Assembly (NCBI GenBank): GCA_025526935.1
Contig: JAHLKD010000110.1
Location: forward strand, 62,001-126,000
Direction: 5' to 3'
Origin: Cladochytrium replicatum
Taxonomy: Eukaryota; Chytridiomycota; Chytridiomycetes; Cladochytriales; Cladochytriaceae
Length of the DNA stretch: 64,000 nucleotides
Positions 2,913-50,810 of this stretch are shown here, piece by piece. Numbering within the stretch: the first letter of the stretch is position 1; every line of letters starts with the position of its first letter. The notes below the pieces were generated by a model, which did no database searches, was not told the DNA's origin, and worked only from the letters and a program-made list of their open reading frames with translations. Position numbers and translations under genes: made by a program.

Positions 2913-4850
<1,938 letters not shown>

Positions 4851-5327
4851 GTTTGGGCAGAGAAGCAAGCAAGCGATGAGTTGAGTTCAGATATCGAGGG
4901 GATTAATACAAGGTTCAGTTTGAGAATGACGTTGAGCTGTTCAACGGGTGAATTTAAAGACGGGCAGATTTTGATGGAACACACGTGGGGGAGGGAGATC
5001 CGAGGGCACAAACGGAAACCGGGGTCGCTCACCTAGAGAAGAACTCATCGCTCGCGCACTGAGAGACCTTATCGTTGCTGAAACACTGCTGGCACCCGCA
5101 GGAAATGTGCGAGACCCAATGCTTTTCATCATGGCACTCATCTCGATGGGGTTGACGAATTATTAGAAAACAAGGTTGCCGTGGTGATTGACCGATCCGC
5201 TCCAGCGGTAAGAGTCGCCCTGGCTGGTTAGCGTAACTTCCGTGGCAATCGATCTGTGCGATGACCTCGGGTGTCCCGTCGTCCTCCCACTTTGAGTTTC
5301 TCGCCCAGAGATTCCAAGCCACGAGAG
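4851..5327. promoter_or_regulatory. Divergent intergenic region, ALT / syntaxin-8
   Basis: This 477-bp stretch separates the start codons of two divergent genes and should hold both promoters. Short ORFs on both strands lack recognisable motifs. No clear TATA element was picked out. Confidence 0.4.
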
Positions 5328-42825: not shown

Positions 42826-45800
42826 ATGTTTGCGTCGCAACAGTATTATGAAGAGGGTCCACGATCTGCGGAGAATCCGCATTCGTACAGCCAGCACGGA
42901 AACTATTATGACCCAAGCGTTCTCCAGCAGGCGCAAGAGTACGGCGAGCAAACTCAGTGGACGCAGGAGCAATACTATGAACAGGACAGATCTGTGCAGC
43001 CTTCTGACATGTCGGGACAGAGCCAATACTTGCCAACGAGTGAAAACTATACTTACAGCCAGCAGCCTTTTGATCCCGCTTTCCAGCCTCGAGCAATACC
43101 TCAAAACAATTATAATTTTGCACCACCAGCTTATTACCAACCTCAACCTGCAATGTATATGACTCCTAACAGCGGTTACGGTGAGCCTCCGAATTATCCG
43201 CAGAATACTGGATACAATTCTTACTGGCCAGGCCAGTATGGTGGGGATACAAATGTGTATGGGAGCGGGAATCAACCTCCGCAGTCAGACTTCCCAGTCC
43301 CTACCAAGAGAAGAAAGTCGAAGAAGGCTGTTGCAGACTCCATTGTTACTGCTGATCAACCAGTTAAGCCTCGCAGAAAGTCCAAGAAGTTTGGCACTAA
43401 TGTTGTTGAGCCTGTTGAGGATCAAACAAACAACGCCTTCGCTGATGCAATGTTTGGAAAACCAGTGCAGGTTGTGGCACCAGAATTCTCTTTCTCCCTT
43501 CCTGAAGAAGAACTTCGTGTGACGGCAAAGAAATCAAAGAAAAAGTTGAGAAAGTCAACTACTGTTCCAGTAAATACAGAAGAGTTTGGAAAGATTGAAA
43601 GTGCGACAATTCCAACTAAAGCAGGGAAAGTGGATTCCAATTTGGAACTAAAGCCTGACAGCAATAATGCTCCAATATCGAAAGACCAACAAAAGCCCCT
43701 AAAGTCTCCAATCGTGAACTTTGCAGATCCTGGCAGTGGTGCGAAAGATCCACAAAGCAATGGAGTTGTCATCAACACAAAGAATGAAAGTTCTAATGAA
43801 AAAGCTTCTAAAGTGGATCAATCTATGTCAAAAACTGAAGCAACAAAAGAAGAGAAAAAGAGTGTTGCAGCATCTGCAAATGGAACCAGCACAATACGGA
43901 TTGAAATAACAGAAGCACCAACAATACCTAGAGTAAAAAAAAGTGACATCTCCAAGGCTACAACCTCAGACTCTCCTAAAAAGATTGATGACCTGTCTGA
44001 AAAGACTCCATCAAAAAGTGAAAATCCAGCCTCAGATATAAAGGGAGATGTAACAGTATTACAAAGCCAAGAATCAAAAATTAAATTTAATAAGGAAGAA
44101 AAGCCACCTGCAACTATGGATAGTGCTGAGCATGCTTCAACAATCAAAATTGACATTCCAGTACTAAAAAACCAAAAATCAAGTGTTTCAGAAACCATCA
44201 AGAATGAATTGCCCATTATAGAGCCACCACAGAGCATCAATCAAAATAGTACAATCAAAGGTGAGATTAGCTCTTCACAGCAGCAAGAATCTCCTACAGA
44301 AAAGAGTGACAAGCCTAATTCAACACTTAAGAGTGACATACAAAAAGCACAGCAACTGGCAACTAATGTTGAAAAAACTGAAATCCAGGACTCAAATGTC
44401 AAAAGTGATCTTAATATTCAACTTGAGAATAAAGATAAACTTCCTGACAATCCCATGAAGTCTCCTACATCCGTTCAAGTCCAAAAGTCAAAAACAGACA
44501 TACTAAGCACTGAGATTCCCAAGAAAGATGTTGTTATAGAAGGGCAGCAAGCCGACCAGAAGAAACTGCCCTCTCGGACAGAACCAGAACGTATTCAGTA
44601 CATTCAAGATGCACAGTTGTTAGCAGGAAAGGAAGATGAAGGTAGTAATTTGTACTAATCTTCCAAGAAAATTGTTAAAAATACCAGCTCGTACAGGCAC
44701 GGATCAAGTTTCGGTACTTGGACGTTTGGTCGCTCGAACAGCCAAACTTATGAATATGCCAGTGTGCATTTTGAGCCTCATTGAAAAAAATTTTGTAGTA
44801 TGGAAGTGTAAATATGGTCTTGATAAATACATACCCAATAATGTTCAAGATGAGCCAAGGTAACTTGCTAATAATCATTTGCTTTCATCTACTTAAACTT
44901 CTAACAAAGGCAACAGTCAATTGATTCCTGGGTAATTACTCAAAATCCAGGAATGAATCACATTATAGCCGACACATCCCAAGATCCACTGTACTCAAAA
45001 ACACCACTGGTATGAATGTATATTGCAAATGTGGCTGTAAAATTGAAACAATGTTTGGTATTCAGACACTTGTTGGCCTAAATTTTTATGCTGGGACTAC
45101 TTTGATAACTTCGTAAGTACCCAGACCACAATATAGATGAGCGTTGTTGTTGATTACCTTTCTAGGAAAGGCCACAGAATTGGTATATAAAAGGCTTTGC
45201 TCTGATGCACTGAATCTTGAATTAATCATTTGAAGGAGTGCTAAGTGTACGGAACACTACTTCACAAAGATCAAATAAGGAGCTTTCTTCTCAGGAGCAT
45301 GAAATTCTACAGGATATGGCTTTTCTTGCTATGGGGATCATTGAAGCTCGTGGAGCACTTAGCGACCTGAAGTCAAGAGAATCCGAGCGAACTCTCATGT
45401 ATAATGTGGACTCAATGTTTCGAGAAACAATGTCTTCAGATGCTTTTGACTTGAAGAAAATACAGAGCTTTGTAGATAGGGTAAGGAATGAGAGTATAAT
45501 TCCTCAAACTTTACACAAATTAACTTGCGTGATTTCATAGACCATCTCCTCAACTCGAACTTGTCTTGGATGCACCCAGTTGCTCTTAGTGGACATCAAC
45601 GTAGATTCTATATCTTTTAGCACTTTGGTTAGGTCATTCAGTTCAGCATATGTAAATTTATGGAAGAGTGGCCAAAATGACTCTTCAAGAAATAATGCAG
45701 CTTTGGTGCAACTTGGGTCACTAGTTATTGAACTAAAGAAGGGGCAGTTTCCCTTTGTTCCAGAAAAACTTCCTGATACTTTAAAAGCTCAGTTGAAAAA

Positions 45801-47813
45801 GCTCTATGTTTCACAATCTGACTCGACAAATGATGAAGTGAAACAAATTCAATCTAAAATTGAGAAAGCTCAATCGACACTAATTGAAAATAAGGCCCTA
45901 AAGAGCACTAAGCCTACAGAACAGCCTACAGATATAAAAGAAAAGACACCTGAAAAAGTAATTGAAAACAAGAATTTCCTGGAAGACAAACCACAACCAA
46001 GAGAACTTCATAGTAACTTGAAGAATGTGGGAGAGCAAGATATAGTCTCTCTGCAAAAGAGCCAGACAGATGCTAGTTTGTTGAAAGAAAAATCCAAAGG
46101 TACTTTTGTTATTTAGTTTCACAGACATCTACTTATAGAAAACCTGGGTAGATGAGTTAAAGAAACAGGAAATAGCGAATCAGAATGTACTATCCACAGA
46201 AACAACAAAATCACAACCAGGACTAGTTATTTCCACAGGATTGCCAGATAGCTCAGAAAAATCAGTCAAAAGTCAATCAACTAAAGATTTGAAAGTTCCA
46301 GATCAGACCAAAGAGAATCAAAACTCTGGACATTCGGTACCAAACGATATATCTCGCATCATATCAGAAATAGTGTGGATTGACAATGCACCTGTTGCAA
46401 TACTAGTTTCTTGTTTTGAATCTGTACGGACAATTACAACCAGTGTATGTTTAACATGCTTTACCTTTCCTTTTTCACTAAGTTGCAGAATAGGATATTC
46501 GAGTGATTTCATCTGTAATTTCCCCTCTAACTGCTGCTGTAGAAGCTTATAACTTCTTGGAATTTATTGCTTCAGCAACCCAATTTAGCTGTGACTCTAT
46601 TTCAAGAACATTATTTGAAAAGGAAGAGACAAATTCTAATAATCAGGGAGACGCAATTGTATATGTTCTCTTAGTGGAGCCGACACTGCCACCTTTACCT
46701 GAATCAACAGGGAAGTCCACCAATAATGCAACTTCATCTAGTAAAAAAGCTGAAAATGAAGAAGAAACTGCTGGAGTTGCTTTTGAAACTCCCAGGAATG
46801 TTGTCGAAATGCTAGTGGATTTTGGACAGGTTTTGAAGACCATTAGATAGACATGTAATATTTAATTGACTGAACATTTTTGCTTATTTCCAGATGTTTG
46901 ATGTTCTGACAGGAAAACATGGTTTGTCGCAGACTTCAAAACGCTTTGGAAACAAGGTAGGAAAGGTCTAAACACTGATAGCATCTGAACCTCTTTTACT
47001 GCTTCAAATGTTATAAAATAGTTTGGTAGGTGTATTTTCTTTAGAATTTGCCTCTTTCTGAGTTGCTGAGTGTAGTGGTTCTTGCGATTGCACAATCTAA
47101 CAATACTGGAAATGTTGCTCAAGACATATCTGATCTTGCTTTGGAACTGGTCTTCACACTTCAAACATATGAAAAACAAGCAAAATTAAAAGTTGGAGCC
47201 CGTATGGGGTTACATGTTGGGAGAGGTTCTGGTACTACTCGCAATAGTACTGCTACTAAAAAAAGAGACTCGACTGCATCATCAGGCTCTCAAAAGACAT
47301 ATTGGGGAGGTATACTTCAATATGCAGTCCAATTAGTAAGAAAAATGAAACTGCATTTTCTTTTCCTGACACAGACTATAGGCAAGCTTAAGCAATGATA
47401 ACAAAATAGTAGTTTCGTCAAACATTCGTGAAGAAACACAGTTGAAGCACTTTGAATTTGGAGACATGAATACTGCAGCAGTCCGAATTAATTCCATTTT
47501 GAATCCTTCGTTACGTATGGCTAGTTTAACATGTCAACTCTGAATTCTAACATTTCTATTTTAAGAGCTAGCCTCAGTATTCACTCTTGATGGCCACAGC
47601 AAGGTTCAAGAGCTGCAAACCGAATCAACACCTCCCAAGACCGAGATGTCAGAAATAATGGATACCAAGTTGAGCCAAAGCTCTTTAAATTCATCGAAAG
47701 AAAGTGTGGTCGAAGCACAAGCAAACAGGACACAAGCAGAAGGTGCACCCAGTCCTGTTTCCAACGAAGATGAGATCCCAACAAAGACAAAAAAGAAATG
47801 TGCCATTCTGTAG
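42826..47813 (+). CDS. GAF + degenerate class III cyclase-like protein with CaaX box
   Basis: A large gene, noticeably AT-rich after its first few hundred bases. Exon 1 (ATG 42826) encodes about 605 residues: a Tyr/Gln/Pro-rich start, then a Lys/Ser/Thr-rich disordered region with short basic patches (KRRKSKKA, PRRKSKKFG). Next is a GAF-like domain (VSVLGRLVARTAKLMNMPVC, LIEKNFVVWKCKYGLDKYI, LVGLNFYAGTTLITS, EILQDMAFLAMGIIEARGAL). After another disordered region come segments that align in order with a class III nucleotidyl cyclase: VVEMLVDFGQMFDVLTGKHG, SDLALELVFTLQTYEKQAK, KVGARMGLHVG, YWGGILQYAVQL and LKHFEFG. The expected metal Asp (VAILVSCFES where FADI is usual) and the Asn/Arg of the catalytic helix are absent. 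The protein ends KKKCAIL, a polybasic CaaX box predicted to be geranylgeranylated. About 1,450 residues. Confidence 0.65.
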
Positions 47814-47904: not shown

Positions 47905-49253
47905 TCAAAGTTCCAATACTGCTGGCAGAAGCTTGGGAGATAGCTCCATGTTAATTACGCTAGCTTTGACAAGTTCCAATCCAACCAGTTGCACCATCAC
48001 CTCCAATGTTGCACGTACAGCTGAGAAACATGCAAACTAAGTTTAGTAAAGATTTGTAAAATTGTTCACATCTTACCTCCAAATGCTGTTTGAGCAAAGA
48101 ACCATTTGCCATGCTTGAAACACCCCGATTCGTCAAATTTCACAGTAATACCCAAAATTGCAGAGAATTGCTCCACCAGCACATCTCCACATAGGATAAC
48201 GCAGACATGACTTGGGGTATTTGCCAGCTCCTCCAAAAATCCTCGGATATCAGACGATGATTTTGGCACCGAAGGCACAAACACAATGTCGGTTAACTCG
48301 TCCACGAGCGGCACTTGTGATTCCTTGCTCCAGCCTCGATCCGTTTGAGCTCGAATGAAATCGGCGTGCTTGTACCCCAATCCCCCGTTCACAGCTGGAG
48401 CACCTTCCCCCAAATGTACGAGATCGTACCAATGCGAGTCCCTGACCGCAAGCAAGGCTTCTCCGACGAATCCAACATCGGCGGCATCGAACCCCGGCGC
48501 GAGTACCGTTACAACCCTACGCTTTCCTTCCCTAATCTCCAACCTCTCCAGCGCTTGGGCAACCAACATTGGTCCCATCTCAAAGATCTTCCTATACGCC
48601 TCCTCGGATGCCTTCAGGTCCGGAACTGGGTGAATCGAAGCAAATGGATCGTCTCCATCGGCGAGCGGCTCGTATCCCCACTCACTCTCCACAGCCTTCG
48701 CCGCGTCCGCTCCAAACAGTTTCGCCGCAAGCGCAAAGCCCAGATCCACGCCCGCGCTCACCCCGCTTCCAGTCCACACCTTGCCATCCTCGACGAACCG
48801 CGCTTTGTGCACGTACGTCACTTTCTCCCTTGCGAACATGCTCATCACCCCGAAATGCATCTTGTTAGAGGTTGCGCGACGGCCGTCGAGGATTCCTGCG
48901 TTCGCGAGAACACAGCTGCCCGTGCACACGCTAACGATGTATTTGGCGAGCGGTGCTTGACGGCGGAGAAAGTCGAGAATGACGGGGTCAAAAGCGGCTG
49001 AGCGAGTACCGATGCCGCCTGGGACAATGAGAACATCGAATTGCGGGGCAGTGGCGAAATCGTAAGATGGAATGGTGGGAAGGTGGGAGGCGGATTCGTT
49101 TGTCTCGGTTGTGAGACCTACGAATGAGAAGGTAGTGTCTGAAGCGACGGGGTCGGTGGAATGCTCGGCCGCCTTGATCAGGACGCAGAGTGGACCCATC
49201 AGATCAAGCAACTCCCACATTGGGAAAAGGACAGCAGCAATCTTGAGAGACAT
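47905..49253 (-). CDS. DJ-1/PfpI didomain protein (copy 1)
   Basis: Start chosen at ATG 49253 (MSLKIAAVLFPMWELLDLMG), which matches the paralogue; an in-frame ATG at 49283 would add 10 residues. The N-terminal 225 residues form a DJ-1/PfpI domain with the nucleophile elbow VSVCTGSCVLA (Cys) and GILDGRRATSNK, where isonitrile-hydratase relatives have GRRATTHW. Residues about 240-400 look like a second, decayed DJ-1 fold (RRVVTVLAPGFDAADVGFV ... ILCGDVLVEQF). A short last exon (from about 48020 down) encodes VRATLEVMVQLVGLELVKAS and the stop at 47905. The enzymatic role is uncertain. In tandem with copy 2, and converges with the GAF gene. Confidence 0.82.
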
Positions 49254-49476
49254 TTGGGATGGAAAGCGCAAGTCATGCGCCATTTCGGCGATTTATAGAC
49301 TGCACCTTGCGCAGTCTTTAGCACCAAGATCATGCAAAACGAACTGCGAGAGAAGCTGCGAGATTGCTAGCGGAGTCAGTCAGGGCTGATAGTCTCATCT
49401 GAAAAATGATCTCGATTGTGTATGATATGGCATTAACTGCCCCAACATAAGAAACATGCAACAAAGACAAACAAGT

Positions 49477-50810
49477 TCACAGAGCAACACCTGGTGGCAG
49501 GAGTTTTGGGGACAGCTCCATTGCGACTACACCGGCTCTCACTGGCTCTATACCTACAAGTTCGATCATTGCTTCCAAAGACGCTCGCATGGCTGCCAAT
49601 CTGACAATAAGAACAGTGTTGAACATTGCGTGCACACATTACCTCCAAATACGTTCTTAGCAAAGAACCATCGACCGCTTTTGAACCAATCCGATACACC
49701 ATATTCGACCTTAATACCTAGAATGGCTGCAAGTCGTTCGACAAGCAGATGCCCACAGGCAATGACTCGAACGGTGCTGGGGGAGTTTGCTAGATCCTCC
49801 AAGGCAGCAACCATGTTTTCGCTCAAGGTATTCACCGAGGGAACGAATACGATGTCTGTGAGATCGTCCACGAGTTGGAAGTTGGAACGCTTCGACGACC
49901 ACTTCTGATCTGCGTTTATCCGAGCAACATCCAGAAATCGACCTGCACCCCCACTGACGGCTTCATCCACCTGCACCAGATCAAACCAGTGTGAACCCAC
50001 AACAGCGAGGTGTGCCTCCCCGACAAACCCAATGTCTGCGAGCTCGAATCCATTTCCAAGAATTGTCGCTATTCTGCGCTTCCCTGCTTTGCCCAACACA
50101 CTCTCCCTCTCCGCATCAATTATGCTGGGGCCAGACTCCAGCGTCCTCTTATACTCTGCCTCTGATGCATTAGTATCAGGGGCTGGATAGATCTTCGCGA
50201 AGGGATCATCCCCTTCCGAAAGCGGCTCGTAACCCCACTCCGCTGCAACCTTCCTCGCAGCTTTTTCTCCAAAAAGCCTCTCCGCAAAAGCAAATCCAAG
50301 ATCGACGCCCGCGCTTACCCCGCTCGCAGTCCACATCTTCCCGTCCTCAACGTACCGCGCTTCACGTACATATGTCACCTTCTCCCGCGCAAACATGCTC
50401 ATAAACCCAAACATGCTCTTGTTTGAAGTAGCTCGGCGACCGTCTAGTAGCCCTGTGTTCGCGAGAACGCAACTGCCCGTACACACACTGGCGATGAATC
50501 GGGCGTTAGGTTCCTGCCTCCGGAAAAAGTCGAGGACATCGGAGTCGAAGGCAGCCACTCGTGTCCCGACACCGCCAGGAATAATTATGACGTCGAACTG
50601 CGGTGCTGTTGAAAACTCATGTGTTGGAAAGGTGGGTAGATGTGAAGCAGACTCGTTGGGCTCGGATATCGAATGACCAACAAGGTGGAATGTGGCAGAG
50701 GAATCAGGATCGTCAGAAAATTCTGCGGCTTTCACGAGCACGCAGAGAGGCCCGATAAGGTCAAGAAGTTCCCACATCGGGAAGAGAACGCCAGCGATCT
50801 TCAAAGGCAT
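49477..50810 (-). CDS. DJ-1/PfpI didomain protein (copy 2)
   Basis: Paralogue of copy 1, same strand, about 220 bp upstream of it. ATG at 50810 (MPLKIAGVLFPMWELLDLIG). The same nucleophile elbow (SVCTGSCVLANTGLLDG) and a second C-terminal DJ-1-like half (RRIATILGNGFELADIGFV ... VIACGHLLVERLAAILGIKV) are present. The final exon joins after FFAKNVFG at about 49600, using an acceptor ending TTGGCAG, and encodes MRASLEAMIELVGIEPVRAG, ending at 49477. The conserved intron position confirms tandem duplication. The Cys nucleophile is kept in both copies, but the His/Trp after GRRAT is replaced by Asn/Lys. Confidence 0.83.

Follow-up and report, generated by a model that had tools for sequence, protein, structure and literature searches.

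What does a gene encode when its product joins a GAF domain to a class III cyclase-like domain with altered catalytic residues and ends in a prenylation motif? This question is raised by a locus of the chytrid Cladochytrium replicatum at positions 42826..47813 (+ strand) of the window, a stretch of 64,000 nucleotides (contig JAHLKD010000110.1, positions 62,001 to 126,000 of the forward strand; assembly GCA_025526935.1). Here, the sequence leads us to propose, with confidence that we place halfway, that this single-copy gene descends from a GAF-cyclase and that its product is a non-catalytic regulator or scaffold at the membrane, probably geranylgeranylated. The pseudoenzymes of the kinase and phosphatase families have been studied thoroughly, whereas no class III pseudo-cyclase that stands alone and combines a sensor domain with a lipid anchor turned up in the titles and abstract openings of our literature search. 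If the proposal is true, a dead, membrane-anchored relative of the GAF-cyclases makes it directly testable how such fungi localise and restrain cyclic-nucleotide production.

The gene and its carboxyl-terminal tail

The coding region begins with the ATG at 42826 and ends with the stop codon TAG at 47811-47813. It matches to the base the interval named in an original prediction made from the letters alone, and it holds an intact frame of 1439 codons. The predicted splice model was built by hand and has a continuous reading frame. It comprises 13 exons, and its 12 GT-AG introns measure 46-88 nt each and 668 nt together:

42826-44641, 44688-44859, 44910-45009, 45066-45112, 45166-45182, 45236-45480 and 45541-46099, + strand: exons 1-7
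46152-46444, 46494-46829, 46894-46956, 47045-47335, 47382-47514 and 47566-47813, + strand: exons 8-13
47784..47810, + strand: KTKKKCAIL, a basic stretch followed by a C-terminal CaaX box with Leu as its last residue, read directly from the last exon

The frame is closed immediately before the ATG at 42826, and the weakest call in the model is the intron 46100-46151, which has no clear branch site. The frame with its splice sites, the domains, the residue changes and the letters of the CaaX box are features of the sequence itself. It is highly probable that 42826-47813 constitutes one gene with this architecture.

The terminal KKKCAIL motif, also part of that prediction, is present. CAIL occupies 47799-47810 after KTKKK, with Cys at -4, two mostly aliphatic residues and a permitted last residue, and the last of only 7 Cys among the 1439 residues (632, 646, 807, 810, 1073, 1116 and 1436) lies precisely at that place. 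Leu as the last residue of a CaaX box points to geranylgeranylation by type I geranylgeranyltransferase (GGTase-I). Regarding the capacity of the genome, matches to PF00432, a family that includes triterpene cyclases as well, were found on five contigs, and matches to PF04140 (isoprenylcysteine carboxyl methyltransferase, ICMT) on two. From these letters the protein is likely to be prenylated, and the lipid would probably be geranylgeranyl.

The gene might instead be decaying under relaxed selection, its cyclase part degenerating and its protein left without a particular role. The strong divergence and the low-complexity insertions would fit this explanation, as would the AT-rich coding sequence that the prediction had noticed: it has a GC content of 0.403 (0.331 at third codon positions, GC3; introns 0.314), and the GC3 of three neighbouring open reading frames (ORFs) is 0.53-0.63. 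The AT-richness is real, but neither a stop nor a frameshift interrupts the 1439 codons in 13 exons, the polybasic CaaX end is complete and all 12 introns keep GT/AG, and decay is considered unlikely.

A second explanation divides the region into two genes, namely one for a low-complexity protein of 610 residues, which stops at 44656-44658, and one for the GAF, pseudo-cyclase and CaaX parts, possibly starting from the ATG at 44636. The frame of exon 1 indeed stays open up to an in-frame stop at 44656-44658, merely 15 nt beyond the donor of the model; a different frame runs open from the ATG at 44636 into the GAF domain. Two such genes would overlap, however, with no space between them. Within the proposed intron 44642-44687 lies a branch-like element, TACTAAT, the CAG acceptor is in the correct phase, and low-complexity stretches of similar composition occur in both halves. 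This division is judged slightly less probable still than decay.

The cyclase-like domain and the GAF domain

Four features of the 1439-residue protein bear on its possible activity:

46785..47486, + strand: class III cyclase-like domain, residues about 1181-1348, intron-interrupted (PF00211, Guanylate_cyc)
47300..47335, + strand: place of the transition-state Asn and Arg, YWGGILQYAVQL, which reads Gln and Gln (identical register in three alignments)
46653..46682, + strand: AIVYVLLVEP, candidate first beta strand of the cyclase-like domain, with Glu at the first metal Asp (MAFFT placement only; outside the Pfam match)
44714..45333, + strand: GAF domain, residues about 615-750, intron-interrupted (Pfam PF01590, PDB chain match, hhalign)

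The predicted similarity of the C-terminal part to class III cyclases was recovered by several profile methods. PF00211 matched with 25.8 bits (E 9e-6, cut-off 21.9) over profile positions 26-171 of 183. Two trimmed pieces freed of low-complexity inserts gave 27.8 and 27.9 bits, and exons 11-12 alone gave 21.1 bits, slightly below the cut-off. No match to PF00211 was found in the four controls (three shuffles, drawn from nine made, and the reversed sequence). A hidden Markov model (HMM) of 28 diverse cyclases, consisting of 7 seeds and the 21 of 30 bacterial loci that passed a length filter, scored the domain at 15.0 bits, rank 1 of 1001, the best of 1000 shuffles reaching 6.2. With hhalign the cyclase match had a probability of 88% at an identity of about 17%, and its score of 43 compares with 22 for the best of 100 shuffles. 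By these comparisons the domain is read as a real but very diverged class III relative.

The roles of the metal-binding Asp residues and of the transition-state Asn and Arg in class III cyclases have been described (PMC6592433, PMC4215837). In the alignments made, all four places are changed, as had been predicted. Asn and Arg are both replaced by Gln in the same register in the HMM, hhalign and MAFFT alignments, and this replacement is firm. The replacement of both metal Asp residues is less sure, the sites being less surely placed: the first reads Glu (MAFFT only) and the second Asn (MAFFT) or Glu (hhalign), with no Asp either way. A retained Lys/Thr base-recognition pair, which would have suggested an ATP sensor without catalysis, was considered and dropped; the first residue of the base-specifying pair is Lys in MAFFT and not in hhalign. 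Judged from these residues, catalysis has quite likely been lost in the domain.

The single GAF domain of the original prediction is borne out by a modest match to PF01590, which at 24.4 bits lies just over the cut-off (22.4). GAF_2 reached 19.0 bits, under its cut-off of 28.6; the PDB chain 4zmu_A, named as a diguanylate cyclase, aligned across the same stretch (E 0.0027), and hhalign against our own rough alignment of 22 GAF sequences gave a probability of 47%. A second, split GAF domain (residues 772-843 and 1047-1116 around a low-complexity insert) had been suggested by eye and was rejected, as every test was negative: three versions had no Pfam match, our own GAF HMM gave -1.3 bits and hhalign a probability of 0.17%. 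That HMM, for which the 22 sequences were used, is weak: of 1000 shuffles, one reached 21.2 bits, and the real GAF domain scored 12.1. Its four seeds were joined by eye, and the seed C1b is partly out of frame.

It had also been suggested that the protein may serve as a cyclic-nucleotide sensor. A subset of the GAF domains in cyclases and phosphodiesterases does bind cyclic nucleotides, and the NKFDE motif is conserved in most of the characterised binders (PMC4411481). In this GAF domain, as read by eye, N and E are kept and K, F and D are changed to T, L and Q (2 of 5 residues retained), whereas the motif is intact, likewise by eye, in the GAF domains of another locus of the same genome, C1, which is described below. 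The sensor function is unsupported because only N and E remain, and we regard it as improbable.

A proposed non-catalytic regulator at the membrane

A single transcript, prenylation, a place at the membrane, dimerisation and a regulatory role, all of which we infer, make up the proposed mechanism. One transcript would span all 13 exons, the Leu at the end of the CaaX box would direct geranylgeranylation by GGTase-I, and the lipid together with the KTKKK stretch would hold the protein at the membrane. The GAF domain might sense a ligand or a partner, although not a cyclic nucleotide through the usual NKFDE site, and the cyclase-like domain would act as a dimerisation or docking module. A homodimer of this domain should be inactive. 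In mammalian transmembrane adenylyl cyclases, two half-complete domains (named C1 and C2 in those enzymes) give one working site (PMC6592433); since both half-sets of the active site are changed here, the domain would not be expected to complete the site of a partner in that manner. If it paired with an active GAF-cyclase, activity should fall or be shifted to another place, provided that the Glu residues no longer bind metal. A partner-binding regulator or scaffold is the function that we favour on sequence grounds, with slightly less than even confidence.

A narrower, speculative and rather unlikely form of this proposal is that the prenylated pseudo-cyclase acts as a brake, which sits at the membrane, uses its cyclase-like domain to pair with active GAF-cyclases in its own cell, of the type found at the loci C1 or C115 (see below), and cripples both composite sites. 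The low-complexity head and the repeated STIKxDI motif would then concentrate partners. If true, the brake would set the place and timing of cAMP or cGMP synthesis.

Several points weigh against a non-catalytic, cyclase-derived regulator. The proposal comes from sequence, and dimerisation of the cyclase-like domain is a supposition. The metal positions align ambiguously, a change of Asp to Glu may still permit metal binding, and Ma1120 is an active cyclase that lacks the conserved Asn and retains the Arg (PMC4215837). Residues 1175-1260, the N-terminal part of the domain, gave no cyclase match in Pfam by themselves; a single-sequence search of the PDB with the cyclase-like part returned no cyclase, and the domain was absent among the matches listed for an HMM of 82 CyaB-like cyclases, with which shuffles reached up to 10.6 bits.

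Two further explanations were weighed. The domain could be a still-active cyclase with unorthodox residues, Glu in place of the metal Asp and Gln in place of Asn and Arg; besides Ma1120, one cyclase domain of Toxoplasma has Glu for a metal Asp (PMC6592433). Ma1120 keeps its Arg, however, and the domain of Toxoplasma can pair with another one, whereas here the alignments show a change at each of the four places, and retained activity is considered improbable. That the similarity is due to chance, the C-terminal domain being something else, could draw on the low hhalign identity and on the searches that miss a cyclase, but it is very improbable given a Pfam match above the curated cut-off across 146 of 183 positions and the lower scores of all shuffles (3 in Pfam, 1000 in the HMM search and 100 in hhalign).

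Known systems, genomic relatives and further features

The claim that no described protein has this architecture stood in part: GAF-cyclases are known, both as CyaB1/CyaB2 and at three other places in the same genome, while the combination of a degenerate cyclase with a CaaX box appears unusual. In the photoreceptor phosphodiesterase PDE6, an active enzyme, GAF domains come first, then an enzyme domain for cyclic nucleotides and last a CaaX box. The protein studied here shares that order of GAF domain, cyclic-nucleotide-type domain and CaaX box, but PDE6 has a phosphodiesterase domain, and no Pfam match to a phosphodiesterase catalytic domain was obtained in the four pieces of the 1439-residue protein that were scanned. 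GAF-cyclases, degenerate cyclase domains and, in PDE6, a CaaX box on a GAF-containing cyclic-nucleotide protein are already known separately. No protein with a GAF domain, a degenerate cyclase and a CaaX box was found in the titles and abstract openings searched.

In Anabaena CyaB1 and CyaB2, as in the protein described here, a GAF region is followed by a class III cyclase toward the C-terminal side. CyaB2 has two GAF domains, binds cAMP there and is an active cyclase (PMC4411481), whereas in the 1439-residue protein a long low-complexity head precedes one supported GAF domain that lacks NKFDE, and the cyclase, which is degenerate, is followed by a CaaX box. A tandem GAF arrangement of the CyaB1/CyaB2 type was not recovered, as Pfam, the GAF HMM and hhalign found no second GAF domain before the cyclase. 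Replaced metal or transition-state residues also occur in the cyclase domains of TgATPaseP-GC of Toxoplasma; its two half-complete domains have been proposed to complement each other (PMC6592433), whereas here there is one domain with both sets changed. Class III cyclase domains are likewise present in a chytrid in the rhodopsin-guanylyl cyclases (RGCs) of Rhizoclosmatium globosum. In these RGCs the cyclase domain is linked to rhodopsin and highly conserved, and RGC1 and RGC2 function solely as heterodimers with NeoR (PMC7655827), whereas the domain here is degenerate and carries no rhodopsin.

The genome (50.5 Mb, 198 contigs) was scanned for relatives. The 1439-residue gene is single-copy and has no close paralogue: six of the seven matches to its cyclase half and four of the five to its GAF half are the gene itself, and the remaining match is weak in each case (E 0.22 and 2.7, respectively). 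The cyclase half had 2 pattern matches and no relatives in a viral contig collection, and the GAF half had 24 pattern matches and no relatives in a genome contig collection. NCBIfam gave nothing over a cut-off. GAF-cyclases are ordinary in this genome, a GAF domain adjoining a cyclase on one strand at three other places:

922000-931000, + strand (C1): GAF-cyclase with NKFDE motifs (by eye), both Asp, the Asn and the Arg kept; resembles cyanobacterial CyaB1/2
63000-71000, + strand (C115): FHA-GAF-cyclase with all four catalytic residues kept; appears to end without a CaaX box
310000-319000, minus strand (C50; about 2955-5000 of the reverse complement): second degenerate GAF-cyclase

At C50 (Pfam 81.9 bits) the first metal Asp is changed to Asn, and, with a splice chosen by eye, Lys replaces the Asn and Val the Arg. 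Since C50 is degenerate too, the 1439-residue gene is not the sole degenerate GAF-cyclase in the genome. The GAF domain of C50 is the second of two GAF-like stretches, the first having no Pfam match, and PAS domains, suspected in C1 and C50 by analogy with CyaB, were dropped for want of a Pfam match. The comparison of CaaX ends covers C115, the one of the three genes whose end was reached. With introns included, the C50 and C1 regions (GC 0.445 and 0.453) are AT-richer than C115 (0.496).

A further locus, C58 (23000-32999), probably holds three clustered guanylyl cyclase genes, seen as five match rows on both strands. When stitched together, its domain matches solved domains of nucleotide cyclases and of rhodopsin/guanylyl cyclase fusions (E about 1e-66), and such a rhodopsin-cyclase-like cluster would fit a zoosporic fungus. 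Three RGCs were reported in Rhizoclosmatium (PMC7655827), and some chytrid zoospores steer by means of rhodopsin-guanylyl cyclases (PMC12264004). According to a survey of early-diverging fungi, guanylate cyclases had not been described in fungi, although Glomeromycotina hold them in abundance (PMC8778642), a statement that overlooks the rhodopsin-cyclases; these are also the subject of passages in PMC8371127 and PMC9616733.

Apart from the two domains and the tail, the protein contains low-complexity regions:

42826..43305, + strand: Q/P/Y/S/N/G-rich head, residues 1-160, prion-like in composition
43306..44641, + strand: Lys/Ser-rich, Cys-free stretch, residues 161-605, probably disordered (K 14.2, S 11.9 %)
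43888..44412, + strand: six degenerate copies of S-T-I-K-x-D/E-I, residues 355-529, starts 24-48 residues apart (motif count)
45721..46333, + strand: second Lys/Ser-rich stretch, residues 860-1046, intron-interrupted, resembling residues 161-605 in composition

No Pfam family matched residues 1-605. The original prediction of a 600-residue Lys/Ser-rich head describes residues 161-605 correctly and fails for residues 1-160, which contain no Lys (Q 15.0, P 13.8, Y 13.1, S 9.4, N 7.5, G 7.5, K 0.0 %). Six copies of the S-T-I-K-x-D/E-I motif were reached in none of 5000 shuffles, the pattern having been picked post hoc. In a pattern-free self-comparison of the repeat region, the sum of the top eight diagonals (384) was attained by none of 200 shuffles and the top diagonal (68) by two of them. 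The region had no match in the genome at E <= 1 beyond itself, and the array is a possible set of short binding motifs. Downstream of the gene, on the minus strand, lie two adjacent and similar ORFs of 405 and 414 residues (48066-49283 and 49566-50810), which we take to resemble DJ-1/PfpI-type proteins.

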